From the NCBI GenBank assembly GCA_029226975.1, contig JAQXZB010000015.1, positions 1-64,000 of the forward strand: a DNA stretch of 64,000 nucleotides, read 5' to 3'. This DNA comes from Clostridiales bacterium (GTDB taxonomy: Bacteria > Bacillota > Clostridia > UBA1381). Positions 25,796 through 40,544 of the stretch are shown one piece after another. Position numbers and translations under genes: made by a program. Every line of letters starts with the position of its first letter. Positions within the stretch are counted from its first letter, which is position 1. A model generated the notes under the pieces. It did not search any database. It worked only from the letters and a program-made list of their open reading frames with translations, and was not told where the DNA came from.

Positions 25796-27808
25796 ATGAA
25801 AAACGAAAGGTTTTGTGTAAGCATTGATGAAAATACGGGATTTATCACATCAATTGTAAACAGAAAAGACCCTTATGAGATGAACTGGTGCGCCGAGGAC
25901 GGACAATGGGGAAAAATTCATCAAAGAAACTGGAACGCATGGACGGGGGAATTGGGCGAGATAGAGGAAAAGAAAATGAGGCTCATATCCTTTGCCCAAA
26001 ACGATAACAGCTCAAAGACTGTATACAGTAACGGAGAACTTTCTGTTACGGTAAGCAGAAGCTTTAAGGCTAACGGTAATTTTGTCGAAAACTATACCAT
26101 AAAGAATTTAACTGATACCGTTGTATGTGTAAACCGCGACAACTTTGGCATTGAAACACCCTTTAATGACCGGTATCCCAATGCGGAGGAGTGTATGATA
26201 CATCACTGCAACGCGCATATTTGGTGCGGGCACAATATAACATGGGTAAACGCTCTTAGAATGGGCGACTCCGATATAAATTTAGGCTTGTATCTGACAA
26301 AGGGCGCAATAGACTGCTATGACCAGAACAGATGCGGGGATCGCAATATATGCGGTGGCTGCACAAGAGGAGTGTTTGTGCTTGAGCCGGAAAGTATGCT
26401 GCTTATGAGCGGCGAGGAATATGAGCTTGAATGGGAGCTTTTCTGGCATGAGGGCAAAGAGGATTTCATGTCCAAAATCAGCGGCTTTAAGGGTTATATA
26501 GGAATTGATGCGGTTCACTACACCGTTTTTGAAGATGAGAATATCGATTTTACAGTAGTATGCGATGAAACGCCGAAGATAAAATGCGGCGGTGAAATTG
26601 TTCCCATAAAAAAGAACGATAAGGGATATAGGATTGTTTACAAAGCGTCTGCCGGTGAGTATCGCTTTTTGATAAAGGCGGGAAATGTATGCACATGGGC
26701 GGAATTTATGGTAAAAATCCCGTTTAAGGATTTGTTGGAGAAAAGAATTCATTTTATCATTGATAATCAGCAGTGCACAGACCCAAAAAGTCCCTTGTGC
26801 GGAGCGTTTTTGATATATGATAATGACTATGACAGCGTGTATTTTGATTATGCAAACCCCGACCACAACGCCTGCCGGGAGAGAATGAATATTCCGCTTT
26901 TGCTGATGAAATATCTGCAGGTCAAAAACGACCCCAAGGTGAGAAAAGCGGTCGATTTGTATATGGAATTTGTGCTTAGAGAATTTTATGACGAGGAAAC
27001 CGGCGAGGTGTTTAACACGATAGGCAAAAACCGGGATCAGTTAAGACTTTACAATGCTCCGGGCGTTATGCAGATATTTGGCGAAATGTATTTTATTACC
27101 CGCGACGAGGTTTACCTTAAGCATATTATGAAGCTTGCAAAAAACTATTACGGCATAGGCGGAGAAAAGTGCTATGCAAACGGTCTTACGATCGGGAAGA
27201 TAATCCGTGCCTTTATGATGGCAGGAAATGACGGGAATACGCAAAAGATGATGACATATTTCCAAAAGCACGTTGATAATATTATGGGCAACGGCACCGC
27301 TTACCCAAAGCATGAGGTGAATTATGAGCAGACAATTGTAACTCCGGCGGTAAATTATATCTCCGAAATGGGCGCATTAAGAGAGGATAAGGAGCGCTAC
27401 ATAACCGAGGCAACAAAGCATATTAAGATTTTGGAGCGTTTTTCGGGAATGCAGCCGAGCTTCCATTTAAATGAGATTGCAATCCGATTTTGGGATGATT
27501 ATTGGTTTGGCAAAAACAGAACGGTAGGCGATACTCTGCCTCATCATTTAAGCTGTTTAAGTGCCCGCGCATATCTTTCCTACGGTTTATTAAGCGGCAA
27601 AAAACAATGGATAGAAAAAGCCGAGGAATGTATAAGAAACTGTATGTGTCTTATTAAGGACAACGGCAGGGGTGCGGCGGCATATGTATATCCTTATAAG
27701 GTGGACGCAAAACGAGGCGAATTCTATGACCCATGGTCAAACGACCAGGATTTGGTACTGTATGACGCGCTGTATTTTGCGGATCATACCGATACATTCC
27801 AAATCTAA
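25796..27808 (+). CDS. Unrecognised cytosolic protein, possible (alpha/alpha)-barrel carbohydrate-active enzyme
   Basis: 670 residues, no signal peptide. Residues 1-215 look like a beta-sandwich (NGNFVENYTIKNLTDTVV, LEPESMLLMSGEEYELEWEL), 225-305 a small beta domain, and about 315-665 a run of paired helices with Trp/Asp/Tyr-rich turns (HNACRERMNIPLLLMKYLQV, PSFHLNEIAIRFWDDYWFGK, YDPWSNDQDLVLYDALYFAD), as in six-hairpin glycosidases and lyases. I cannot match it to GH88, GH105, GH127 or another named family. It is co-transcribed with the AraC regulator and sits between esterase and uronate-type catabolic genes, so processing of an imported oligosaccharide is the best guess. Confidence 0.6.
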   Translation: MKNERFCVSIDENTGFITSIVNRKDPYEMNWCAEDGQWGKIHQRNWNAWTGELGEIEEKKMRLISFAQNDNSSKTVYSNGELSVTVSRSFKANGNFVENYTIKNLTDTVVCVNRDNFGIETPFNDRYPNAEECMIHHCNAHIWCGHNITWVNALRMGDSDINLGLYLTKGAIDCYDQNRCGDRNICGGCTRGVFVLEPESMLLMSGEEYELEWELFWHEGKEDFMSKISGFKGYIGIDAVHYTVFEDENIDFTVVCDETPKIKCGGEIVPIKKNDKGYRIVYKASAGEYRFLIKAGNVCTWAEFMVKIPFKDLLEKRIHFIIDNQQCTDPKSPLCGAFLIYDNDYDSVYFDYANPDHNACRERMNIPLLLMKYLQVKNDPKVRKAVDLYMEFVLREFYDEETGEVFNTIGKNRDQLRLYNAPGVMQIFGEMYFITRDEVYLKHIMKLAKNYYGIGGEKCYANGLTIGKIIRAFMMAGNDGNTQKMMTYFQKHVDNIMGNGTAYPKHEVNYEQTIVTPAVNYISEMGALREDKERYITEATKHIKILERFSGMQPSFHLNEIAIRFWDDYWFGKNRTVGDTLPHHLSCLSARAYLSYGLLSGKKQWIEKAEECIRNCMCLIKDNGRGAAAYVYPYKVDAKRGEFYDPWSNDQDLVLYDALYFADHTDTFQI

Positions 27809-27908: not shown

Positions 27909-27939
27909 TTATTAAGTGATTAAATTTGGAGGTAAGCAT

Positions 27940-28992
27940 ATGGCAAAAATCAAACTGGATGAGCTTAGAAGATTTTCGGCTAAAGCCCTTGTAAAGGCGG
28001 GGATGAGCGAGGAGGATGCGGCAACAACCGCCGAGGTTCTCATAACCACCGACACCTTCGGAGTGCTGACCCACGGTACGAAAAACCTGTATCAGTACAT
28101 ACTTAAAATGCAGGCGGGCGGACTTGACGCAAAGGCTGCTGCGACTGTTGAGGGCGAGGGTCCCTCATGGGCAATCATAAACGGCAACAAGGCGGTAGGT
28201 ATGGTTTCTGCCTGCAAGGCTATGAATTTGGCAATTAAAAAGGCAAAGGAAACGGGCGTTGCATATGTGGGAGTTAAAAACAGCTGTCACTTCGGTGCAG
28301 CGGGGTACTATGCAAACCTTGCTGCAAAAGAGGGAATGATAGGACTTGCGATGAGTAACGCAGATCCTGTAATTGCTGTTCCGAACGGCTGCAAAAAGGC
28401 GATTGGAACAAACCCGTTTTCGTTTGCGGCTCCCTTGGGAAACGGCAAAAGCGTATTTTTGGATATTGCTCTTAGTAATGTGGCTGCTTTAAAGGTAATT
28501 ATGGCACAGGAAAAAGGAATGGCAATTCCCGATACATGGCTTGTGGACAGAGATGGACTTCCCACAACCGATGCAGGCAAATTCCCCAAGGAGGCAAGTC
28601 TTCAGCCCATGGGTGCGCATAAGGGATACGGTCTGGCGGTACTGGTTGAGATACTTGCAGCCGTTATTACCGGTGCGGGGCTTTTAAGCGAGATTACAAG
28701 CTGGAATTTGGATTTATCATCAACAAATAATGCAGGTCACGGATTTATTGCCGTTGATGTGTCAAAAATGATGCCCTATGAAAAGTTCATTGAGCGTATG
28801 AACAAAATGGCACAGGAGCTTAAAAATGCGCCAAAAGCAAAAAATGCCGACAGGATTTATCTGCCCGGTGAGATGGAATGGGACAAGAGAAGTGCGGCAT
28901 TAGAAAGCGGAGAAATCGAGATTACCGACGCAATGGCACAAAGCTACATAAAATTATCGGAATTGACCGGTGTTGAAATTAAATTTAATTAA
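27940..28992 (+). CDS. Malate/L-lactate dehydrogenase-family (Ldh2) NAD(P)H oxidoreductase
   Basis: Family of YlbC/YiaK/AllD enzymes that reduce 2-keto acids (for example 2,3-diketogulonate) or oxidise the 2-hydroxy acids. 350 residues from ATG 27940, with TTGGAGG just upstream. Family landmarks are THGTKNL (catalytic His), NSCHFGAAGYY, ISNADP-like MSNADP, and GTNPFSFAAP. The family is full length. First gene of the 13-gene catabolic cluster, 14 bases before the aldolase gene. Role inferred: interconversion of a keto-uronate or aldonate intermediate; the precise substrate is not readable. Confidence 0.85.
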   Translation: MAKIKLDELRRFSAKALVKAGMSEEDAATTAEVLITTDTFGVLTHGTKNLYQYILKMQAGGLDAKAAATVEGEGPSWAIINGNKAVGMVSACKAMNLAIKKAKETGVAYVGVKNSCHFGAAGYYANLAAKEGMIGLAMSNADPVIAVPNGCKKAIGTNPFSFAAPLGNGKSVFLDIALSNVAALKVIMAQEKGMAIPDTWLVDRDGLPTTDAGKFPKEASLQPMGAHKGYGLAVLVEILAAVITGAGLLSEITSWNLDLSSTNNAGHGFIAVDVSKMMPYEKFIERMNKMAQELKNAPKAKNADRIYLPGEMEWDKRSAALESGEIEITDAMAQSYIKLSELTGVEIKFN

Positions 28993-29006: not shown

Positions 29007-29666
29007 ATGGATAAAACAATGTATGGGATTTTAAAAACAACGGGTATTTGCCCAATTATGGTTGCGCCAGAGTTGGATTTTGCGGCAGATGCGGCGCACG
29101 CTTTGGCGGAGGGCGGCTTGCCTGTTTGTGAGGTTTTGCTTCACAGAGATGAAGATTCATTAAACAGAATTAATGAAATAGCGAAAAATGCGCCCGAGGT
29201 TATAGTTGGTGCAGGTTCGGTTATTTCAATTAAAGATGCCGAGGAAGCAATCGATGCAGGGGCAAGGTTTTTCGTTGCGCCGGGATTTGTTCCGGAGGTT
29301 GTGGAGTTTGCACTCAAAAAGAATATGCCTATTTTGCCGGGCTGTGTTACTGCAAGTGATATTTCAATGGCGCTGAATTACGGGATTAATATTCTAAAAT
29401 TCTTCCCAATCTATCAGCTTGGCGGAGCAGATACTCTTGCACAGTATCACGGCGGTCCCTTCGGTAATGTTGAATGGGTTGTAACCGGCGGACTCAATGG
29501 CAAAAACTTCTTGCCGTTTGCGGAGATTGACTATGTTTTGGCTTCCGGCGGTGACTGGATGTTTGCCGAAAATAATGCCGTAAACGATAAGAATTATGAA
29601 ATGATTGTTGAAAATACAAGAAGGACGATTAAGGATGTTTTGGATTTGCGTTCAATAAACAGATAG
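29007..29666 (+). CDS. KDPG/KHG-type aldolase
   Basis: Class I pyruvate aldolase cleaving 2-keto-3-deoxy (phospho)gluconate-type acids to pyruvate and an aldehyde. 219 residues. Schiff-base Lys131 in NILKFFP, acid/base Glu42 in CEVLLHR, Arg47, PGCVTASDI (the PGxxT loop) and the VVTGGLNGKN phosphate or carboxylate site. The usual phosphate-binding region is altered enough that KDG-type, unphosphorylated substrates are possible. Ribosome site CGGAGG. Neighbours (Ldh2 reductase, SDR, aldehyde dehydrogenase, glycerate kinase) fit an Entner-Doudoroff-like branch. Confidence 0.85.
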   Translation: MDKTMYGILKTTGICPIMVAPELDFAADAAHALAEGGLPVCEVLLHRDEDSLNRINEIAKNAPEVIVGAGSVISIKDAEEAIDAGARFFVAPGFVPEVVEFALKKNMPILPGCVTASDISMALNYGINILKFFPIYQLGGADTLAQYHGGPFGNVEWVVTGGLNGKNFLPFAEIDYVLASGGDWMFAENNAVNDKNYEMIVENTRRTIKDVLDLRSINR

Positions 29667-29687
29667 ATTTTGTTGGGTGGTGTCATA

Positions 29688-30467
29688 ATGTCAAAAATGT
29701 GTTTTGATTTTGAAGGTAAAAATGTTTTGATTACCGGTGCGGAGCGCGGAATCGGCCTTGAAATTGCCAAAGGTTTTGCAAAGTGTGGTGCAAACATTAT
29801 TATTGCCGGAATTATGAACGATGAATTTCCGAATGCGGAAAAGCTTATAAAGCAAGAGGGGGCGGAATGCGTCTGCGTTCATACAGATATTTCCGACGAA
29901 GTTTCTGTTAAGAAAATGGTTAATACCGTAAAAGAAAAATTCGAACGGATAGATATACTTGTTAATAATGCGGGAATCAATAAGCTTGCACCGGCAGAAG
30001 AAATGCCTCTTGAGGTTTGGCAAAGAATTATCAATGTGAATTTTACAGGCACATTCATTATGTGCCGTGAAATAGGTTCAATTATGATTAAGCAAGGCGG
30101 CGGAAATATCGTAAATATCGCGTCTATGTCAGGCTTGGTTGTAAATCCTTTGCCGCAGCAGCAATGTGCGTATAACAGTTCAAAAGCAGGGGTTATTATG
30201 CTTACAAAATGTTTGGCGAACGAGTGGGCGGAAAAGGGCATCCGAGTTAATGCCGTTTGTCCCGGATTTACACGGACACCGCTTACCGCAAAGCGATTGG
30301 ATACGCCGAATGACCCGGCGGTTAAAAAATGGATAGGCGGAACACCTATGAACAGAGTGGCTAATCCGGATGAAATGGTTGGAATTGTTTTATATTATGC
30401 AAGTGAGTTTTCGTCATTTACAACAGGTACATGTATACCCATTGACGGCGGATATACTTGCTTGTAA
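29688..30467 (+). CDS. Short-chain dehydrogenase/reductase, KduD/gluconate dehydrogenase-like (paralogue 1)
   Basis: NAD(P)-dependent reductase, 259 residues from ATG 29688 (GGTGGTG upstream). GAERGIG at 17-23 binds the cofactor; NNAG and YNSSK (Tyr162, Lys166) form the active site. It resembles SDRs acting on keto-deoxy sugar acids, such as 2-dehydro-3-deoxy-gluconate 5-dehydrogenase. It is a close sister of the SDR at 39097-39867, sharing long stretches such as PAEEMPLEVW and TPNDPAVKKWI. The function would suit reduction of a 5-keto-4-deoxyuronate from lyase products. Confidence 0.85.
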   Translation: MSKMCFDFEGKNVLITGAERGIGLEIAKGFAKCGANIIIAGIMNDEFPNAEKLIKQEGAECVCVHTDISDEVSVKKMVNTVKEKFERIDILVNNAGINKLAPAEEMPLEVWQRIINVNFTGTFIMCREIGSIMIKQGGGNIVNIASMSGLVVNPLPQQQCAYNSSKAGVIMLTKCLANEWAEKGIRVNAVCPGFTRTPLTAKRLDTPNDPAVKKWIGGTPMNRVANPDEMVGIVLYYASEFSSFTTGTCIPIDGGYTCL

Positions 30468-30578: not shown

Positions 30579-31427
30579 ATGAATAATATTACAGATACAT
30601 TTAAATTATATAACGGTGTTGAGATCCCTTGTATGGGACTTGGCACATGGCAATCAAAAGATGAAATCGCAAAACTATCTGTTCTTGCGGCAATGTCACA
30701 CGAGTATCGCCTTATTGATACGGCAGCGGCATACGGAAATGAACGTGGAGTAGGCGCAGGAATAAAAGAATGCGGACTTAAAAGAGAAGAAATTTTTGTT
30801 ACAAGTAAGCTCAGAAACGCTGACCACGGCTATAAATCAACGCTCAATGCATTCGAACTGACTATGGAAAAGCTTGGACTTGAGTATTTGGACTTATATT
30901 TAATTCACTGGCCAAATCCCGTTCAGTATCGCTTTATATGGAAAGAGGCAATGCAGGAAACATGGAGAGCTTTTGAAGAGTTATACGAAGCAGGGAAAAT
31001 TCGTGCAATCGGCATAAGTAATTTTATGCCCCATCATATTGATGCACTTATGGAAACAGCAAAAATCAAACCCATGGTAAATCAGCTTAAGCTTTGCCCG
31101 GGAATAACTCAGGACGAAGCTGTTGATTACTGCAAAAAGAACGATATTGTCGTTGAGGCATACAGCCCCTTCGGTACGGGCGCAATATTTAAGGTACCCG
31201 AAATGAACGAAATGTCGAAAAGATATGGCAAGTCCATAGGTCAGCTTTGCTTAAGGTGGTGTCTGCAAAATGGTTTTGTTTCACTGCCCAAGTCTGCAAA
31301 CCCCATGAGAATTAAGCAAAACGGAGAAATATTCGATTTTGAGCTTTCAAAAGAGGATATGGATATAATATCAAACCTTAAGGGAGTCTGCGGCGAGGCG
31401 CCCGACCCGGATAATATCTTGTTTTAG
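30579..31427 (+). CDS. Aldo/keto reductase
   Basis: NAD(P)H-dependent reductase of aldehydes or ketoses, 282 residues, (beta/alpha)8 barrel. The catalytic tetrad is visible: Asp and Tyr in LIDTAAAYGNE, Lys in VTSKLRN, His in LYLIHWP. The C-terminal LPKSANPMRIKQN is the usual cofactor site. A 111-base gap before it contains TTTTGCAA (near 30536) and a TATAAT, so an internal promoter is possible. AAGGAG ribosome site. Its substrate is unknown; glyceraldehyde or a uronate-derived aldehyde would fit. Confidence 0.85.
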   Translation: MNNITDTFKLYNGVEIPCMGLGTWQSKDEIAKLSVLAAMSHEYRLIDTAAAYGNERGVGAGIKECGLKREEIFVTSKLRNADHGYKSTLNAFELTMEKLGLEYLDLYLIHWPNPVQYRFIWKEAMQETWRAFEELYEAGKIRAIGISNFMPHHIDALMETAKIKPMVNQLKLCPGITQDEAVDYCKKNDIVVEAYSPFGTGAIFKVPEMNEMSKRYGKSIGQLCLRWCLQNGFVSLPKSANPMRIKQNGEIFDFELSKEDMDIISNLKGVCGEAPDPDNILF

Positions 31428-31435
31428 GAGCGCTT

Positions 31436-32896
31436 ATGAGAATTACAAATAAAGAGGCTCTTATTTCTCACGGAAACAAAGAAGGGCGAAAAATCGTAAC
31501 GGAGCTTTTGGATGCCGGTCTTGACGCTCTTGACCCTTACTACAGAGTAAAAGAGCTTGTAAAAATAGAGGACAACAAAATCATACTCGATAATAGGGGC
31601 TTTGAAATGAAAGGCGACCCAAGAAGCGGTGCGGCGGTGTATGACCTTAAGGACTATGACAGGATTTTCGTTATAGGCGCGGCAAAGGGAATACAGCGGG
31701 CGGCACTTGCTTTAGAGGAGGTTTTGGGCGAGCATCTTACGGCAGGTCATGTAATAGGAAAGCACGGCGAGGAAATTATATGCAAAAAAATCGGCGTTAC
31801 CTTGGCGGGACATCCCGTACCCGACAAATACTGTGTTGAGGGCTGCAAAAGGATTGAAAAGCTTGCAAGGGATATTACGGAAAGAGATTTGGTTTTTACT
31901 GTTTTCGGCAGCGGCTGCGGCTCGCTCTTTACATATCCGGCAGGGGATATAACCATAGAGGATATATCGGATTTTACCCATATGATGCAGATTGAGAAGG
32001 GTGTACCCACAAGCGATTTAAACAGTATAAGAACACATACAGACCGATTTAAAGGCGGAAGAATTACAAGGCTTTTAAAAAAAGCGACCATGGTGCATAT
32101 GGTTACGGCAGACCCGTCTAAGATGTCAACTCCGGTTTTGAGGGTATCATATTTTGAAATGTTAAAGAGCAACACGTTTTTCCCGACCGTTGCCACAGCA
32201 TCGACTTATAAAGACTGCATAGACATAATCAATAAATGGGACGCATGGGACAAAACTCCAAAATCCATAAAGGAGCATCTGCTCTCATGCAAGGACGAGA
32301 ATATGTCTACAGAGGAGTATGAGAATTTCAATTCGAGATTTTTCGGGCTGATTTTTAAGGATTCAACGGTATACCCGGCAGTCAGGAAAAAGGCTTCGGA
32401 GTTGGGCTTTAAATGTATTATGCTTTCGGAGTACATGGAAGCGGAAGCGAGAGAAGCGGGCTTTGTGGACGCCAATATGGCTCTTTGCTGTGAGAGGATG
32501 GGCGAGCCGTTTGAAGCTCCGGTTGTGCTTATGTCGTCGGGGGAAAATGTTGTAACGGTAGGCAGTGAAACCGGTATCGGCGGACGTAATCAGGAATACT
32601 GCACAGCGGCGGCATTAAGGATTGCCGGAAGCAAAAGAATTGTCATGGGTGCGGTTGATACGGACGGTACGGACGGCCCCGGGGGCTTTTGCTTTGAGGG
32701 TGCACCGAAATGCCTTGCAGGTGCGGTGGTTGACGGATATACCGCCGATGAGGCGAAAAATTCGGGAATAAATTTGTGGGACGGACTTAAAAGCCATGGA
32801 ACAAGCAAGCCGCTTTGGCGGCTTGACAGCGCAGTAGCGGCAAGAGAAAATGTTTCGGCGCTTGATTTAAGAGTAATATTTATAGGAGGAGAATGA
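31436..32896 (+). CDS. Glycerate kinase type II (GckA/TtuD, MOFRL family)
   Basis: ATP-dependent phosphorylation of D-glycerate, in this family to 2-phosphoglycerate. 486 residues. N-terminal DUF4147-type domain with IGAAKGIQRAALALEEVLG, AGHPVPD, FGSGCGSLFTYPAG and DLNSIRTHTDRFKGGR; C-terminal MOFRL domain with VGSETGIGGRNQEYC and GAVDTDGTDGPGGF. Full length for the family, with slightly unusual GSGCGS where SGGGSA is common. The ribosome site overlaps the end of the upstream gene; its stop overlaps the next start (ATGA). Together with an aldehyde dehydrogenase it would turn glyceraldehyde into 2-phosphoglycerate. Confidence 0.83.
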   Translation: MRITNKEALISHGNKEGRKIVTELLDAGLDALDPYYRVKELVKIEDNKIILDNRGFEMKGDPRSGAAVYDLKDYDRIFVIGAAKGIQRAALALEEVLGEHLTAGHVIGKHGEEIICKKIGVTLAGHPVPDKYCVEGCKRIEKLARDITERDLVFTVFGSGCGSLFTYPAGDITIEDISDFTHMMQIEKGVPTSDLNSIRTHTDRFKGGRITRLLKKATMVHMVTADPSKMSTPVLRVSYFEMLKSNTFFPTVATASTYKDCIDIINKWDAWDKTPKSIKEHLLSCKDENMSTEEYENFNSRFFGLIFKDSTVYPAVRKKASELGFKCIMLSEYMEAEAREAGFVDANMALCCERMGEPFEAPVVLMSSGENVVTVGSETGIGGRNQEYCTAAALRIAGSKRIVMGAVDTDGTDGPGGFCFEGAPKCLAGAVVDGYTADEAKNSGINLWDGLKSHGTSKPLWRLDSAVAARENVSALDLRVIFIGGE

Positions 32897-34200
32897 CTAT
32901 GTACGGTACGTTAATTACAGACGTTAAGGCACGTCAGGTTTATACCAACCGAGGCAAGCCGGGCGTTGAGGTTACAATAACAACACAAAACGGTGCAGAG
33001 GGCAGAGGAATGTGTACTGCGGGCGTTTCAATGGGAACTCACGAGGTGGATTTTTCCTATGACGGCGGCAAAAAATTCGGCGGCAAGGGTGTGGGCAGAG
33101 CCATAGAAAGCGTCAAAAACAAAATTGCGCCGGTAATTATCGGAATGGATGCGGCAAATCAGGCAGAGATAGACGCTGCAATGCTCGCTATTGAGCCTGA
33201 TGCAAAGATAAGGCTTGGCGGAAATGCCGTTGCGGCGGTTTCGGCGGCGGTGCTAAAGGCGGGCGCAAAAGCCCTGGGTATTCCGCTTTACCGTCATATA
33301 GGCGGTGCGGGAGCAATGTATCTGCCTGTTCCCGGAGTAGCAATGGCTGCGGGCGATGAACGCTACGGCGGCGGTATTACCACGCCCGGAGGAAAGCCGA
33401 CGATGTCGGTTATGGCTTACGGCTTTGACACATTCTCGGAAGCTTCCTATGCCTGTTGGGAAATTCATACCCGCTGGGCGCAAAAAATGAAGGATAAATT
33501 CGGCGGACTTCCCAACGTTAGAGATTTTATATCCATTCCCAAGGGAGTTTACAGCTGCGACAGAGAGATATGGGAGGATATGCTAAAAATCATAATCGAA
33601 GCGGGCTATGAAGGCAAGGTCGGATTTCAGATGGACGTTGCAACGGATACATATCATAATAAAGAGGACGATAAATATTACGGCTTGTTTGACAAGACAC
33701 CGAAAACCAAGGAGCAGCTTTATGATTTCTATATGCAGATAATAAAGGACTATCCCTTTGTGATTATAGAGGATCCCTTTAACGAGGACGATTATGAAAC
33801 CACCGCCGCACTTACAAAGGAATGCGGAATACAGATTGTGGGCGATGATTTATTTACCACAAACCCCGAACGTGTGGCATACGGCATTTCAAAGAATGCG
33901 GCAAACGCGGTGCTTCTTAAAGTAAATCAGGTGGGTACAATATCCGAAGCTCTTGAAATGATTCAGTATGCGTATAAATTCGGCTACGGGGTTATGCCCT
34001 CGGACAGCCGAGGTGAGGGTGCAGCCATTGCGGATTATGCGGTCGGCATAAATGCCGGTTCTGTTCGTGAAAGCGCCATAGGCGACAGAGGAAACCGCTT
34101 CCTTGAAATTGAGGAGGAGTTAGGCTCATCGGCTAAATTTATCGGAGCAAGAGGCTTAAAGGGCTTTAGAAATCAGCAAAGAGCGGAAGGCAAGCTTTGA
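32893..34200 (+). CDS. Divergent enolase-superfamily enzyme (not a canonical enolase)
   Basis: 435 residues, alignable end to end with enolase: GKPGVEVTIT, KFGGKGVGRAIE, RLGGNAVAAVSAA, PLYRHIGG, LLKVNQVGT. Metal ligands Asp248, Glu293 and Asp318 and the base Lys343 are kept. Most other catalytic parts are not: the SGAST loop is AGVSMGT, the QEFMI block (catalytic-site Glu) is SVMAYG, the GDEGG loop is absent (about 212-224), SHRSGETED is SDSRGEGAA, and the substrate-binding Lys of KTGA is Arg (VRESA). It should bind metal and form an enolate, but probably on a substrate other than 2-phosphoglycerate, for example a sugar acid (inference). ATG 32893 overlaps the upstream gene; ATG 32899 has better spacing to AGGAGG. 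Confidence 0.8.
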   Translation: MTMYGTLITDVKARQVYTNRGKPGVEVTITTQNGAEGRGMCTAGVSMGTHEVDFSYDGGKKFGGKGVGRAIESVKNKIAPVIIGMDAANQAEIDAAMLAIEPDAKIRLGGNAVAAVSAAVLKAGAKALGIPLYRHIGGAGAMYLPVPGVAMAAGDERYGGGITTPGGKPTMSVMAYGFDTFSEASYACWEIHTRWAQKMKDKFGGLPNVRDFISIPKGVYSCDREIWEDMLKIIIEAGYEGKVGFQMDVATDTYHNKEDDKYYGLFDKTPKTKEQLYDFYMQIIKDYPFVIIEDPFNEDDYETTAALTKECGIQIVGDDLFTTNPERVAYGISKNAANAVLLKVNQVGTISEALEMIQYAYKFGYGVMPSDSRGEGAAIADYAVGINAGSVRESAIGDRGNRFLEIEEELGSSAKFIGARGLKGFRNQQRAEGKL

Positions 34201-34215
34201 TTTGGGAGGTAGATT

Positions 34216-35646
34216 ATGTATAAACAGTATATAAACGGAAAATTGGTTGACGGTGCGGGCAAGCCTATGGACGTATTTAATCCTGCAACCGGCGAGATTG
34301 TGGGAACTGTGGGCTGTGCCGACAAAAATCAGACAACAGAAGCCTTAAAAGCTGCCCAAACAGCCTTTAAGACCTGGTCGAAAACCTCTGTAAACGAGAG
34401 AGCCGATTGGCTCTATAAGCTAAAGGATGCGTGTCTTAAAGAAAGAGATACTTTAATTGATTTGGTATCGGCAGAATCGGGCAGACCTTATCCGGCCGCC
34501 TGCGGAGATGTTGACTGGCTGCTTATAAGCCTTTCGTATTATGCGGAGGAAGCCAAAAGAATTGAGGGTGAGGTTATGCCGGCACTTCACGCAGGAGATA
34601 AGCTTAATTATCAGATTGTCACAAAACAGCCCGTAGGCGTTACGGTGGGTCATGTGGCATGGAATTATCCTTTGGGAAACGCAAGCATAAAGCTTGCACC
34701 GGCGGTAGCTTCGGGCTGTACCTGTATTATCAAGCCATCCTCACAAACGCCGCTTGCAACACTTTATGTGGGTGAGATTGCGGAAAAAATCGGATTTCCG
34801 GCAGGAGTTATAAATATTCTTTCCGGTCCCTCCGGCGAGGTTGCAAAAACCCTTAACGAAAGCGACATTCCGAGAATGATAAGTCTTATCGGCTCCTATG
34901 AAACAGGGATTAAGCTTATGCAGCAGGGCTCAAGGTCATTAAAGAAGTATTCTTTGGAGCTTGGCGGAAACGCTCCCGTTGTTGTTATGCCGGATGCGGA
35001 TATTGAGGAAACAGCGGCAAACATTGTTGCAAAAAAGGTTGGATTTGCCGGTCAGACCTGCGTAAACTACAACCGTATTTATATCCATGAAAGCATATAT
35101 GATGTAATGTGTGAAAAGATTGCACAGGAGCTTAAAAAGGTAAAGCTGGGCAAGGGTAAGGATGAAGGATATATTATGGGACCCGTTATCAATGCTGCCG
35201 CAAGAGACAGAATGCTTGAGCTTATAGACGATGCCGTAGAGGGCGGTGCAAGGCTTGTTATGGGCGGCGAGGTGCCAGAGGAATTTAAGAAGGGCAGCTA
35301 TATAACTCCCGCGCTTTTGATTGATGTAAACGATGATATGAGAGTATCAAAGGAAGAAATTTTCGGACCCATTATTCCGCTTCAGTCCTTTAAGACTTTA
35401 GACGAGGCGATAGAGAAGTCCAACAATACAATCTTTGGACTTTCGGCGTATTTCTTCGGTCATAACTCAAAGGAAATGAGCAGGTATTTTGAGGGCGTAA
35501 GAGCCGGAGAAATATTCGTAAACGGCGGTATCGGCAGCGAGTTTTCGCCCCATGCGGGAGCAAAGCAGTCGGGTATAGGATGTGATAAGTCAAAGCATTC
35601 ACTGGCGGAATACTATGACATTAAATTCCTGTCCATGATTCCGTAA
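34216..35646 (+). CDS. NAD(P)-dependent aldehyde dehydrogenase
   Basis: Oxidises an aldehyde to the acid. 476 residues with the standard active site: Asn150 in WNYPLG, Glu248 in ELGGNAP, Cys282 in GQTC, and the EEIFGPI block. It is closest in style to succinate-semialdehyde, lactaldehyde and glycolaldehyde dehydrogenases. In this cluster it most likely oxidises the aldehyde released by one of the two aldolases (glyceraldehyde, lactaldehyde or similar). GGGAGG ribosome site, 15 bases after the enolase-like gene. Confidence 0.88.
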   Translation: MYKQYINGKLVDGAGKPMDVFNPATGEIVGTVGCADKNQTTEALKAAQTAFKTWSKTSVNERADWLYKLKDACLKERDTLIDLVSAESGRPYPAACGDVDWLLISLSYYAEEAKRIEGEVMPALHAGDKLNYQIVTKQPVGVTVGHVAWNYPLGNASIKLAPAVASGCTCIIKPSSQTPLATLYVGEIAEKIGFPAGVINILSGPSGEVAKTLNESDIPRMISLIGSYETGIKLMQQGSRSLKKYSLELGGNAPVVVMPDADIEETAANIVAKKVGFAGQTCVNYNRIYIHESIYDVMCEKIAQELKKVKLGKGKDEGYIMGPVINAAARDRMLELIDDAVEGGARLVMGGEVPEEFKKGSYITPALLIDVNDDMRVSKEEIFGPIIPLQSFKTLDEAIEKSNNTIFGLSAYFFGHNSKEMSRYFEGVRAGEIFVNGGIGSEFSPHAGAKQSGIGCDKSKHSLAEYYDIKFLSMIP

Positions 35647-35661
35647 CAAAGGAGCACTGTG

Positions 35662-36636
35662 ATGGATAAAAAAATAGATTTAATAGGCTTGGGCGACCCG
35701 TTTTTGGACTTGGTAATAGAAATTGACGCTCTGCCCAAATCCAACACCAACTGCCCCATGCACGAAAGATGCTTTCAGGGCGGCGGAAATGTTGCAACAG
35801 CCCTTGCGGCGGCGTCAAGGCTTGGGCTTAAAACCTCGCTTATAGGCTCTGTAGGAGATGATTTGTTCGGTAAAATGTCCCTGTCGGATTTGGAATACAA
35901 CGGAGTTGATATTTCAAAAATGATAACGCATAATAACAAAAAGAGCAATTTTTCCGTATGCGTTGCCGAACGTGCCGTTAAGGGCAAAGAATTTATAGTG
36001 GGGCATGGTGATTTTGAGCAAATTGAGCCTGAGGACATAGATGAGGAATATATACGGTCCGCAAAAATGCTGCATACGGGACTTATTACTCCGGCAGTTA
36101 TAAAGGCGTGCGAATGTATTCATAAGGCAGGCGGCAAGGTCAGCATAGACGCGCCCTATTACAAGCCCTTTGTGTATGAAAACTATAAGCATTTTGATAT
36201 TTTTATCGGCTCTGAAATGTATTATGATGAAATGTGCAAAGTAAAGGGATTTAATAAAGACGAATATGAGAAGAACATGAATACTCTAAGAGATGAAGGC
36301 TGCGAAATTGTTATATTCACTTTCGGTGCAGACGGCTGCCGCGGTGTTTGGGAGGATAAGTATTTTGAAATCCCGGCAATTGAGGTTGATGTCGTTGATA
36401 CAACCGGTGCGGGGGATGTGTTCCATGGAGCGTTTGATTATGCATATCTTAAAGGCATGAATGCAGAAGAATGTGCGCGCTTTTCAACCGCCGTATCGGC
36501 GATAAAATGCACCCGTCCCGGCGGACGTTCGGGAATACCCACACTTGCGGTTTTGGAAAAATTCCTTGAAACCGGCAAGATAGATTACAGCGAAATAGAT
36601 GAGCGTGTGGCTCATTATAAGCGCGGAATTATATAG
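35662..36636 (+). CDS. PfkB-family sugar kinase
   Basis: Cytosolic ATP-dependent kinase of the ribokinase family, 324 residues from ATG 35662 (AAAGGAG 8 bases before; GTG 35659 less likely). GGGNVATALAAASRLG is the first PfkB signature, and DTTGAGDVFHGAF the second, with catalytic base Asp252. The substrate may be 2-keto-3-deoxygluconate or a ketose; the family cannot be split by eye. The next gene encodes an isomerase-like protein and the one after a class II aldolase, which favours a ketose-1-phosphate route. Confidence 0.85.
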   Translation: MDKKIDLIGLGDPFLDLVIEIDALPKSNTNCPMHERCFQGGGNVATALAAASRLGLKTSLIGSVGDDLFGKMSLSDLEYNGVDISKMITHNNKKSNFSVCVAERAVKGKEFIVGHGDFEQIEPEDIDEEYIRSAKMLHTGLITPAVIKACECIHKAGGKVSIDAPYYKPFVYENYKHFDIFIGSEMYYDEMCKVKGFNKDEYEKNMNTLRDEGCEIVIFTFGADGCRGVWEDKYFEIPAIEVDVVDTTGAGDVFHGAFDYAYLKGMNAEECARFSTAVSAIKCTRPGGRSGIPTLAVLEKFLETGKIDYSEIDERVAHYKRGII

Positions 36637-36851: not shown

Positions 36852-38243
36852 ATGCTTGATTATAAAGTAAGAATCGGTCTTGTACCGTTAAGGCGCGACT
36901 GTACGCCCAGACCCGGTCAGTTTAACTGGGAAATTGCCGAGGAAAGGGGAAGAAAAACGGTTGCGTACATAAAGGAACACTATTCAACAGACAATATTTC
37001 CTTTGTGGATTTAAAGGGTGTGATAGACGTTGAGGTGCTTTGGTCATGCAACGATGTTGACAAGGTGGCAGAGCATTTCAGAAAGGAAAAGGTTGACGCG
37101 ATTTTCCTGATTGCCGCAAATTTCGGGAATGAAGAAGCGGCGGGCGAGCTTGCCAAAAAGTGCAAAAAGCCTGTGCTTTTGTGGGGACCCCGCGATGAAG
37201 CGCCCGATGAGGGCGACGGTATGCGTTATACGGATTCCCAGTGCGGTCTGTTCGGAATAAGCCGTCAGCTTATGCGCATGAATGTTCCCTTTACATATAT
37301 TGAAAACTGTCACGTGGAGGATGCGGCGCTTGAAAAGGGAATTAAGCGCTTTGCCTCGGTTGCCTGCGGAGTAAGGAATTTTTCGGGTATGAGAATAGGT
37401 CAGATAGGTCAAAGACCTGCACCCTTCTGTTCCGTTATCTGCAACGAGGGACAGCTTATGGAGGAGTTTGATATTCATCTTGTACCCATAAATCTGGCAC
37501 TTATTCAGGACAGGTTTAATACCATTGTAAATACCCGTCAAAAGGAGCTTGAAGCGGGAGCGCAGATGCTTCGCAATATGTATGAGCTGGACGCCGCGTC
37601 GGATGAAACCGCTAAGAAGCAGTATGCATATGTTCTGCTCTTTAAGGATTTGTTTGAGGAATTTAAGCTTGATGCGATTTCCTCGGAGTGCTGGTCAGCA
37701 CTGCAGCTGCTTGTGGGCGCGATGCCCTGCACCGCCTACGGCATTCTTGCGGACGAAGGGTATATTATAAGCTGTGAAAACGATGTTCACGCCGTTATGA
37801 CTCAGGTGCTGTTAAAATCGCTTGCACTGGGAAAAAAGCCGCCGCTGTTCGGTGAGTTTACCATTCGTCATCCCGAGGAGGAGAATGTGGAGCTTCTGTG
37901 GCATTGCGGACAGTTTGCGTATTCAGCAAGAAGAACGGATAAGCCCTGTCGCTGTATGAATATGAGAGAAAATTTCGAGGCAAAGAAAGGTCATTACACA
38001 GTTGCCAGAATTGACCAGGATCATGGAAAATATTCGATTATTGCCGGAGAATGTGACAGCGCCGAGGGACCCTATACCAACGGTACATACCTGTGGGCGC
38101 GCTTTGATGATTTAAACGCATGGGAGCGCAAACTCGTTGAGGGACCGTATATTCACCATGTATCGGAGATAGAGGGAAGCCTTACGGAGAATGTAAAGGA
38201 ATTTTGCAAGTATGTTCCTGCATTGAAGTTTGAAACAGTATAA
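36852..38243 (+). CDS. L-fucose/L-arabinose isomerase-family protein
   Basis: 463 residues, resembling the short fucose/arabinose isomerase-like proteins. The N-terminal Rossmann-like part has VDAIFLIAANFGNEEAAGELAKKCKKP and GPRDEAPDEG; the C-terminal part has SSECWSAL, YIISCENDVHAVMT and LLWHCGQFAYS, where acidic and His residues would hold the metal. The family interconverts aldoses and ketoses, but members of this subgroup are poorly characterised. It is preceded by the hairpin leader at 36808-36851 and followed after 21 bases by a class II aldolase. An isomerase, PfkB kinase, aldolase order is the textbook logic of fucose/rhamnose-type degradation. Confidence 0.78.
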   Translation: MLDYKVRIGLVPLRRDCTPRPGQFNWEIAEERGRKTVAYIKEHYSTDNISFVDLKGVIDVEVLWSCNDVDKVAEHFRKEKVDAIFLIAANFGNEEAAGELAKKCKKPVLLWGPRDEAPDEGDGMRYTDSQCGLFGISRQLMRMNVPFTYIENCHVEDAALEKGIKRFASVACGVRNFSGMRIGQIGQRPAPFCSVICNEGQLMEEFDIHLVPINLALIQDRFNTIVNTRQKELEAGAQMLRNMYELDAASDETAKKQYAYVLLFKDLFEEFKLDAISSECWSALQLLVGAMPCTAYGILADEGYIISCENDVHAVMTQVLLKSLALGKKPPLFGEFTIRHPEEENVELLWHCGQFAYSARRTDKPCRCMNMRENFEAKKGHYTVARIDQDHGKYSIIAGECDSAEGPYTNGTYLWARFDDLNAWERKLVEGPYIHHVSEIEGSLTENVKEFCKYVPALKFETV

Positions 38244-38264
38244 TTTTGTTTGGAGGATATTATA

Positions 38265-39095
38265 ATGCGTTATACATTAAAGGAAATTTTGGATTTGGCA
38301 CAGGAGGGCGGCTTTGCCGTTCCTGCGTTTAATGTTTACAATCTGGAAACTCTTATGGGTGTTGCGTTAGCAGCCAAAGAAACAAAAGCACCGGTTATAA
38401 TTCAGATGTACAGCCGTCTTTTTAATACCGGAACGGGTGAGTTCATGGCACCGGTTATCATAGATGTAATGAATAAATTAAAGACACCGGTTACCTTCCA
38501 CCTTGATCACGGCGCGGGCATACCCGAATGTATCCGCGCAATGCGCTTCGGAACAACGGGAGTTATGATTGACGCTTCGACCATGCCCATTGACGAAAAT
38601 ATTGAAACAACCAAAAAGGTTGTGGATATGGCAAGGGAAGCCGGAGTTGCCGTTGAGGGCGAGCTGGGACATATCGGCTCAACCAAGGATGAAAAATGGG
38701 ACGCGTATACCGAGGTTGAGGACGCGGTAAGATATGTTGAGGAAACCGGAATTGACGCGCTTGCGATAATGGTAGGAACGGCTCATGGAAAGTATGCACA
38801 GGCACCGGTTCTGGCAATTGACAGAATTAAGGAAATCCACGCAAACACAAGAGCGCATCTTGTTCTGCACGGAGGATCGGGAGTTGGCGACAATCAGATA
38901 AAAGCGGCGGTAAATGCGGGAATACGCAAAATCAATTTCGGAACAGATGTCTGCTATGCGTTTATGGACGGATATAAGGCACTTGATCCCTACAGCGCAC
39001 CTCTTGACGTTACCATGTCAAAGGTTGCACAGAACGTAAAGGAATTTGCAATCGGGAAGATTAAGCTTCTCGGAGCGGAGCAAAAAGGAGAATAA
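38265..39095 (+). CDS. Class II fructose/tagatose-bisphosphate-type aldolase
   Basis: Zinc aldolase splitting a ketose (bis)phosphate to glycerone phosphate and an aldehyde. 276 residues from ATG 38265 behind TTGGAGG. HLDHG at 79-83 (catalytic Asp, zinc His), EGELGHIG at 131-138, GTAHG with zinc His174, LHGGSG at 201-206 and NFGTD (phosphate site). Length suits the GatY/KbaY/FbaA group. In this cluster it probably works on a sugar 1-phosphate made by the PfkB kinase. The stop codon is one base before the next start. Confidence 0.87.
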   Translation: MRYTLKEILDLAQEGGFAVPAFNVYNLETLMGVALAAKETKAPVIIQMYSRLFNTGTGEFMAPVIIDVMNKLKTPVTFHLDHGAGIPECIRAMRFGTTGVMIDASTMPIDENIETTKKVVDMAREAGVAVEGELGHIGSTKDEKWDAYTEVEDAVRYVEETGIDALAIMVGTAHGKYAQAPVLAIDRIKEIHANTRAHLVLHGGSGVGDNQIKAAVNAGIRKINFGTDVCYAFMDGYKALDPYSAPLDVTMSKVAQNVKEFAIGKIKLLGAEQKGE

Positions 39096-39893: not shown

Positions 39894-40544
39894 ATGCTTG
39901 AAATTTTAAAAAAGAAAAACCCGGGACTTAAAGTGTATTCCGTATTCGATGAGGAATTTAAAAGCTTCGGTAGGGTTATAGAAAATATCGATACAGCTCA
40001 AATTATAGATGCGGGAGCAAAAATTCCGCTGCCGGAGATGGGAGTTAAATATGTTCCCTCCGAGGCGGAATTTGAGAAACTTTCCATTGCAGAGGAAATT
40101 CAAAAGGAGCTGTTTGGCACGCTCCCTGCGCAGCTGGGCTATTGTTGGGGACACAGCTCGTTTTTAAATGCTGCGGAATGGCATACATCAAGCGAGATAA
40201 ACATTGCAATAACGCCCATGGTTTTGATTATGGGACACAGATGGGAGATAGAGAACAATAAAATAGACTCGTCTAAGTTTACGGCGTTTTATCTTCCCAA
40301 GGGAGCGGTAATAGAATGTTTTGCCACAACCCTGCACTACTGTCCCTGTCAGGTTTCGGATGAGGGCTTCGGCTGCGCTGTGGGACTTCCCAAGGACACA
40401 AACACAGCCCTTGAGAATGTGCCGGAGGATAAGCTGATAAGCGCAAAAAACAAGTGGATAATATGCCATGAGGAAAATCAATCGGCAATAGCCAGGGGAA
40501 TAACTCCCGGCATAACCGGTGTAAATTTTGAGATAAAGTATTAA
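39894..40544 (+). CDS. DUF4867-family protein, cupin-like
   Basis: 216 residues, recognised as DUF4867, a family of unknown function found beside sugar-catabolic genes in Clostridia. It reads as a single cupin-like beta barrel: YCWGHSSFLNAAEWHTSSEI (His and Glu candidates), LIMGHRW, FYLPKGAVIECFATTLHYCP with a further His. A metal site like that of KduI-type sugar isomerases is plausible. Because the cluster has lyase and SDR genes but no recognisable KduI, I infer it could isomerise a uronate or keto-deoxyuronate. Clear AGGAG ribosome site. Confidence 0.7.
   Translation: MLEILKKKNPGLKVYSVFDEEFKSFGRVIENIDTAQIIDAGAKIPLPEMGVKYVPSEAEFEKLSIAEEIQKELFGTLPAQLGYCWGHSSFLNAAEWHTSSEINIAITPMVLIMGHRWEIENNKIDSSKFTAFYLPKGAVIECFATTLHYCPCQVSDEGFGCAVGLPKDTNTALENVPEDKLISAKNKWIICHEENQSAIARGITPGITGVNFEIKY

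Follow-up and report, generated by a model that had tools for sequence, protein, structure and literature searches.

Enolase (EC 4.2.1.11) is among the most conserved enzymes, and the other described systems closest to the locus considered here are the class II glycerate kinases and the sulfo-EMP2 pathway. The class II glycerate kinases, of the MOFRL/DUF4147 type, belong to the non-phosphorylative Entner-Doudoroff (ED) pathway; glycerate kinases compared in an earlier study show 13-34% relative activity on L-glycerate (PMC2063504). Sulfo-EMP2 is found mainly in Firmicutes (PMC12890257). Here we describe an enolase-fold protein of 435 amino acids, ENO* (32893..34200), and the kinase encoded directly upstream of it, GlcKin* (31436..32896), in a 64,000-nucleotide window (the whole stretch of DNA analysed, positions 1 to 64,000 of contig JAQXZB010000015.1) from a Clostridiales bacterium. 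All features of the two genes and of their operon given below lie on the + strand. We propose, with a probability of roughly 0.55, a two-step GlcKin*-ENO* module whose second enzyme, ENO*, would convert a 2-phospho acid to phosphoenolpyruvate (PEP) or a PEP-like enol phosphate.

The stop codon of GlcKin* runs into the first ATG of ENO* (ATGA, a 4-base overlap), and the likely true start of ENO* is Met3 (32899), where its homologues begin. Both enolase domains are full (Enolase_N, PF03952, 122.8 bits; Enolase_C, PF00113, 181.9 bits), whereas the MR_MLE_C match reaches 40 bits against 182 for Enolase_C, and the score for talarate/galactarate dehydratase is 28 bits against a cut-off of 500. With TIGR01060, the curated NCBI model of phosphopyruvate hydratase, ENO* scores 286.6 bits, under the cut-off of 300. 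The nearest solved structures are enolases, headed by that of Methanocaldococcus (2pa6, E 4e-79). AlphaFold2, given an alignment of 30 relatives, produced a model (mean pLDDT, the predicted local distance difference test score, 89.8) that matches enolases with Z 46-49 and a root-mean-square deviation of ~2 Å over ~400 residues. Taken together, the fold match of the model and the domain scores place ENO* on the true enolase scaffold rather than on the mandelate-racemase branch.

Active-site residues were compared in an alignment of 18 ENO* sequences with canonical enolases, and we assume that the numbering and residue roles of yeast enolase apply to the aligned positions. As a preliminary description of this reading frame had claimed, the ligands of the first magnesium (Mg I), Asp248 (codon 33634..33636), Glu293 and Asp318, and the general base Lys343 (codon 33919..33921) are kept, and all four are invariant across the ENO* alignment. 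The same description regarded the canonical blocks as replaced; this holds for the SHRSGETED block, in place of which codons 368-376 (33994..34020) encode MPSDSRGEG, but only in part for the first (SGAST) loop, where Gly44, Ser46, Gly48 and Glu51 are invariant both in ENO* and in the compared canonical enolases. Since Ser46, the counterpart of yeast Ser39, a ligand of the second magnesium (Mg II), is kept, this loop is altered rather than lost. The flap-loop block (codons 157-170, RYGGGITTPGGKPT; 33361..33402) exceeds the canonical H..QE block by 4 residues, and its Arg157, Tyr158, Lys168, Pro169 and Thr170 are invariant in all ENO*. In 18/18 sequences the equivalent of yeast His159 is Arg157 and that of Glu168 is Thr170, accompanied by the inserted Lys168; the equivalent of Glu211 is Phe212 (Tyr in the most distant member) and that of His373 is Asp371 (Glu or Ser in other members). 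At the phosphate-site pair Arg374/Ser375 all 18 have the swapped order Ser372/Arg373, with a 2-residue deletion after it, and Lys396, the Lys of KTG, is Arg392 in every one of the 18, as had been read from the KTGA motif of the window protein. The catalytic glutamate pair and both histidines are thus gone, and Arg157, Lys168, Arg373 and Arg392 are new invariant residues. With both Glu168 and Glu211 lost, ordinary dehydration of 2-phosphoglycerate by ENO* is very unlikely.

Scanning 84,980 species genomes yielded 17 ENO* matches at 62-89% identity, and carriers are sparse in family, order, class and phylum scans. The hosts are Clostridia of gut, rumen and sediment, with one 53%-identical member (genome G478) belonging to a different class of the phylum. 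The clade comprises 18 sequences, 53-89% identical to the window protein, all of which fall on one branch of a maximum-likelihood tree (support 100/100); the canonical enolases that these genomes also carry lie elsewhere in the tree. The ratio of nonsynonymous to synonymous substitution rates (dN/dS) is ~0.02-0.065, from unsaturated pairs only. The changes do not vary among the 18 sequences, which come from several families, and with the low ratio this is more than chance; judged from these sequences, ENO* is under strong purifying selection, and neither decay nor chance accounts for it. A fully canonical enolase with intact SGAS, QEFM, GDEGG, SHRSGE and KTG motifs is present in 8 ENO* genomes including the window's own, where it lies at G000:C99:26791-28038; a second enolase was not found in 5 other ENO* carrier genomes, whose assemblies are assumed to be incomplete. 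The preliminary description had made its proposal depend on another enolase in the genome, and had suggested structure prediction and a search for a separate clade in similar operons; the canonical gene, the enolase fold of the model and the single branch of the tree all agree with it. Its broader idea, that the enolase scaffold has taken on a new activity, is likewise supported by the separate clade, the distinct operon context, the coexisting canonical enolase and the missing acid residues.

The partner kinase is altered as well. GlcKin* contains DUF4147 (128.3 bits) and MOFRL (60.1 bits) domains, and scores far under the cut-offs of the NCBIfam glycerate 2-kinase models (88.5 vs 550). Judged against TM1585 and PH0495, the ENO*-linked kinases have GSGCGS or NGIS for GGGS and RTH or RNH for RKH (GSGCGS and RTH in the window), have lost the SGPT motif and carry an insertion after TDGP; the GGRNQE and TDGTDGP motifs are kept, and the sequence comparison gave no obvious gain of an extra basic residue in GlcKin*. 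Every ENO* locus examined has GlcKin* immediately before ENO*, whereas a relative of the kinase occurs nearby at only one of 30 other enolase loci. That locus (L047:8692-11236), a third kinase-enolase neighbourhood besides those of ENO* and of the haloarchaeal plasmids described below, encodes a remote DUF4147-type kinase, 26% identical to the window kinase, followed directly by an enolase homologue on a long branch whose motifs are mostly canonical. The joint change of kinase and ENO* points to a shared substrate line other than D-glycerate, and an ordinary D-glycerate kinase is an improbable role for GlcKin*. The kinase-ENO* pair is also the constant part of the ENO* loci: it is all that is left of the operon in two Eubacteriaceae genomes (62%-identical ENO*), in one of which (L019) it sits between housekeeping and restriction-modification genes. 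G478 has the order substrate-binding protein, two ATP-binding cassette (ABC) transporter genes, GlcKin*, ENO* and a LarA-type racemase. A LarA-family protein downstream of kinase-ENO* at L076:11662-12978 scores 253 bits with the LarAH6 malate racemase model (cut-off 500) and is taken as a member of an unassigned LarA subfamily, here among sugar-acid genes.

In the proposed module, the aldolases of full operons would release an aldehyde, which the aldehyde dehydrogenase would oxidise to a small 2-hydroxy acid, and GlcKin* would phosphorylate the 2-hydroxyl of such an acid, other than D-glycerate. ENO* would hold the 2-phospho acid in the manner of enolase, with Mg I holding the carboxylate and with Mg II/Ser46 and Arg residues holding the phosphate; the enolate would be formed by Lys343 and the metals, and elimination of the β substituent via the rebuilt pocket would yield PEP or a PEP-like enol phosphate. 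A 2-phospho acid is favoured because the Ser loop is kept, an Arg lies in the phosphate-binding block and the pairing with the altered kinase is unbroken, and ENO* thus probably acts on the phosphorylated product of the kinase rather than on a free aldonate or uronate; the preliminary description had put forward a sugar acid or its phosphate. A flipped substrate, with the phosphate in the former leaving-group pocket, is disfavoured by the retained second-metal Ser loop. As stand-alone pairs imply that the product enters central metabolism directly, a C3 acid and PEP are favoured.

The identity of the substrate can be narrowed only tentatively. It is conceivable that the pair is a second entry to PEP on the enolase fold, starting from 2-phospho-L-glycerate or, with release of sulfite, from phosphosulfolactate. 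Two C3 substrates fit best, each of them uncertain when taken singly. The first is 2-phospho-L-glycerate; the activity of glycerate kinases on L-glycerate cited above and the neutral aldehyde suggested by the operon aldolase (below) speak for it. Lys168 and Lys343 might here form a base-acid pair that works from opposite faces, and L-glycerate could come from the cleavage of L-aldonates derived from D-uronates, a stereochemical route that we worked out ourselves. The second, less likely than the first, is a lactate phosphorylated at C2 and bearing an anionic leaving group at C3, as in phosphosulfolactate; no acid residue would then be needed, and loss of the acids with gain of Arg/Lys would be expected. 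A longer 2-phospho-aldonate is, if anything, slightly less likely. A literature search gave nothing pertinent on L-2-phosphoglycerate, on phosphosulfolactate in sulfoglycolysis or on odd enolase paralogues.

The usual gene order is Ldh2, Eda-type aldolase, a short-chain dehydrogenase/reductase (SDR) in some loci, aldo-keto reductase, GlcKin*, ENO*, aldehyde dehydrogenase, PfkB, FucI-type isomerase, class II aldolase and, again in some loci, DUF4867. In the window, family matches identify the Ldh2-family 2-hydroxyacid dehydrogenase (27916..28992) and the aldolase of the 2-keto-3-deoxy-6-phosphogluconate (KDPG)/2-keto-4-hydroxyglutarate type (29007..29666), both conserved in the operon, and the SDR oxidoreductase (29670..30467). 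Family matches together with operon comparison further identify the aldo-keto reductase (30579..31427), an aldehyde dehydrogenase resembling succinate-semialdehyde dehydrogenase (SSADH; 34216..35646) and a PfkB-family sugar kinase (35659..36636). They are followed by a FucI/AraA-type isomerase (36852..38243), by profile scores very remote from the SftI model, and, from Pfam and operon comparison, by a class II ketose-phosphate aldolase (38250..39095) and a DUF4867 protein (39894..40544). The Eda-type aldolase has an invariant GGDW motif in the window copy and 11 related loci; measured against E. coli KDPG aldolase, which we take to read GGSW, an Asp replaces the phosphate-binding Ser. This suggests that the operon aldolase handles a non-phosphorylated substrate, with a neutral aldehyde such as glyceraldehyde as its product. 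A structure search matched no solved structure to the isomerase or to two neighbouring proteins of loci L010 and L014, and the relatives of Eda, PfkB, Ldh2 and fructose-bisphosphate aldolase that were retrieved from plasmids were mostly generic. In Lachnospiraceae UBA1759 (L015:205-5132) two proteins with electron-transfer flavoprotein (ETF) domains, an FAD-linked oxidase and a LarA (lactate racemase, 599 bits) are encoded upstream of the ENO* operon.

Several neighbours bear on the sugar that feeds the operon. The 670-residue protein at 25796-27808 has no Pfam match; it is homologous to BACCELL_00875 (PDB 5no8, E 2.6e-111) and is taken as an L-rhamnose-α-1,4-D-glucuronate lyase of family PL27, a family described previously (PMC8377490); such a homologue would indicate use of arabinogalactan or gum arabic. 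Further neighbours at ENO* loci include a PL8 lyase, GH4 α-galactosidase-type genes, GH31 and a TRAP transporter. A DUF4867 gene adjoins tagatose-6-phosphate genes on a Carnobacterium plasmid, and the closest annotated relatives of the isomerase (Listeria, Monoglobus) lie beside transketolase and FGGY-type (annotated glycerol kinase) genes. Collectively, the neighbours point to plant-polysaccharide sugars in general and to no single sugar. The idea that the operon replaces the canonical uronate pathway is unsupported: UxaC occurs in 7 of 15 ENO* genomes, the window's own among them. On plasmid pZZM402 of Zymomonas mobilis (L097:128-4636) a class II aldolase, an aldose epimerase, a FucI-type isomerase (288 bits to SftI), a Gfo/Idh/MocA protein and a major facilitator superfamily transporter are encoded in succession, and the plasmid also carries SSADH and PfkB genes; the set is taken as an unassigned sugar pathway.

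Certain observations weigh against the proposed module or its individual substrates. The flap loop of ENO* is weakly modelled (pLDDT <50 at residues 155-161 and 163-167), and genome G840 has the altered kinase with no ENO* found in that genome; the kinase locus there (L095:2683-6074) also has, by eye, two ABC permeases and an IclR-like regulator. L-glycerate is hard to square with the racemase beside the pair in G478, and a sulfonate with the Asp of the aldolase and the neighbours for glycan degradation. With PEP as the product, the Eda-type aldolase and Ldh2 of nearly all loci would be only loosely explained.

One alternative is that ENO* dehydrates a free sugar acid, for example galactonate, L-galactonate or L-gulonate. 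It would feed a 2-keto-3-deoxy acid to the Eda-type aldolase and so supply the dehydratase otherwise missing ahead of it; the aldehyde dehydrogenase and GlcKin* would process glyceraldehyde and glycerate, and the canonical enolase would finish the route. The non-phosphorylated substrate suggested by GGDW, the presence of an aldehyde dehydrogenase and a glycerate-type kinase in the same operon, and the nearby GH4 and PL27/PL8 genes, which could supply galactose or uronates, are consistent with this. The alternative is nevertheless doubtful, for the GlcKin*-ENO* pair also stands alone with no adjacent aldolase, the second-metal Ser loop and the phosphate-site Arg are kept or replaced by Arg/Lys, and the kinase, being altered too, is hardly a plain D-glycerate kinase.

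The release of sulfite, a special case of the proposed kinase-enolase module, is about as doubtful. Here the FucI-type isomerase, PfkB kinase, class II aldolase and aldehyde dehydrogenase would lead to sulfolactate as in sulfo-EMP2, GlcKin* would form 2-phospho-3-sulfolactate, and ENO* would eliminate sulfite to give PEP, the ComA reaction reversed. The operon enzymes fall in the same broad families as SqvD, SqiK, SqiA and SlaB, if the family assignments of these four, which we in part presume, are right. The loss of both acid glutamates and the new Arg157/Lys168 would suit an anionic leaving group, and the racemase of the G478 unit is related to malate racemases, malate resembling sulfolactate. 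Set against this, the FucI homologue reaches 94-121 bits where the SftI cut-off (NF048012) is 700, no sulfur-specific gene was seen at ENO* loci, the aldolase carries Asp where the anion would bind, and GlcKin* lacks an obvious additional basic residue. An assignment of the homologue as an SftI-type sulfoquinovose isomerase was rejected, since it is no closer to SftI than is the Listeria protein of the transketolase operon. A sulfoquinovosidase search gave no hit over cut-off, but the E. coli control gave none either; the sulfite reductase AsrC was not found over cut-off in any ENO* genome.

Less probable again is that ENO* epimerises or racemises a 2-phospho acid, with Lys343 and Lys168 exchanging the α proton from opposite faces and no elimination. 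The loss of the leaving-group acid pair, the retained base and the new invariant Lys168, which we place in the opposite-side loop, would fit such an activity, but that loop is poorly predicted, and with the LarA-type protein next to the pair G478 would then have two racemases. That ENO* is merely a fast-evolving 2-phospho-D-glycerate enolase serving an ED-type non-phosphorylative branch through glycerate, as the unchanged fold, metal ligands and base and the adjacent aldehyde dehydrogenase and glycerate-type kinase might suggest, can be rejected as highly improbable given the clade-wide replacement of glutamates and histidines, the canonical enolase in 8 of the same genomes and the strong purifying selection.

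If the kinase-enolase module is correctly predicted, the ENO* clade would show how enolase chemistry can be redirected, with scaffold, metals and base kept while the leaving-group pocket was rebuilt together with a matching kinase. It would also mark an uncharacterised route by which a sugar-derived acid enters central metabolism in gut and rumen Clostridia. Automated pipelines could label such genes plain enolase, and a function assigned by name would then be wrong.

Among the known systems, sulfo-EMP2 (SqvD, SqiK, SqiA, SlaB) resembles the ENO* operon in having a FucI-like isomerase, a PfkB kinase, a class II aldolase and an aldehyde dehydrogenase. It differs in that its review mentions neither enolase nor glycerate kinase (PMC12890257), and the isomerase of the ENO* operon is only remotely SftI-like, with no sulfoquinovosidase seen beside the operons. 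GlcKin* has the domain architecture and the GGRNQE and TDGTDGP motifs of the class II glycerate kinases, but its GGGS, RKH and SGPT motifs are changed. On haloarchaeal plasmids (Haladaptatus, Halorubrum) an enolase paralogue likewise adjoins a DUF4147 kinase, near sugar-acid genes in Halorubrum; these independent kinase-enolase pairs (L092:7703-10365 and L096:6696-9347) are annotated as plain phosphopyruvate hydratase. Unlike ENO*, the haloarchaeal paralogues have SERSG for SHRSG, GVEGG or GFEGG for GDEGG and GGELAAG for the His loop, keep both acid glutamates, are accompanied by kinases with nearly canonical motifs and fall outside the ENO* clade. With enolase itself (EC 4.2.1.11) ENO* has in common the fold, the Mg I ligands, the first-loop Ser and the base Lys; it is set apart by the absent equivalents of His159, Glu168, Glu211 and His373, the swapped Arg and Ser of SHRSG, the change of Lys396 to Arg, a score below the TIGR01060 cut-off and a flap loop 4 residues longer that contains an invariant Lys.

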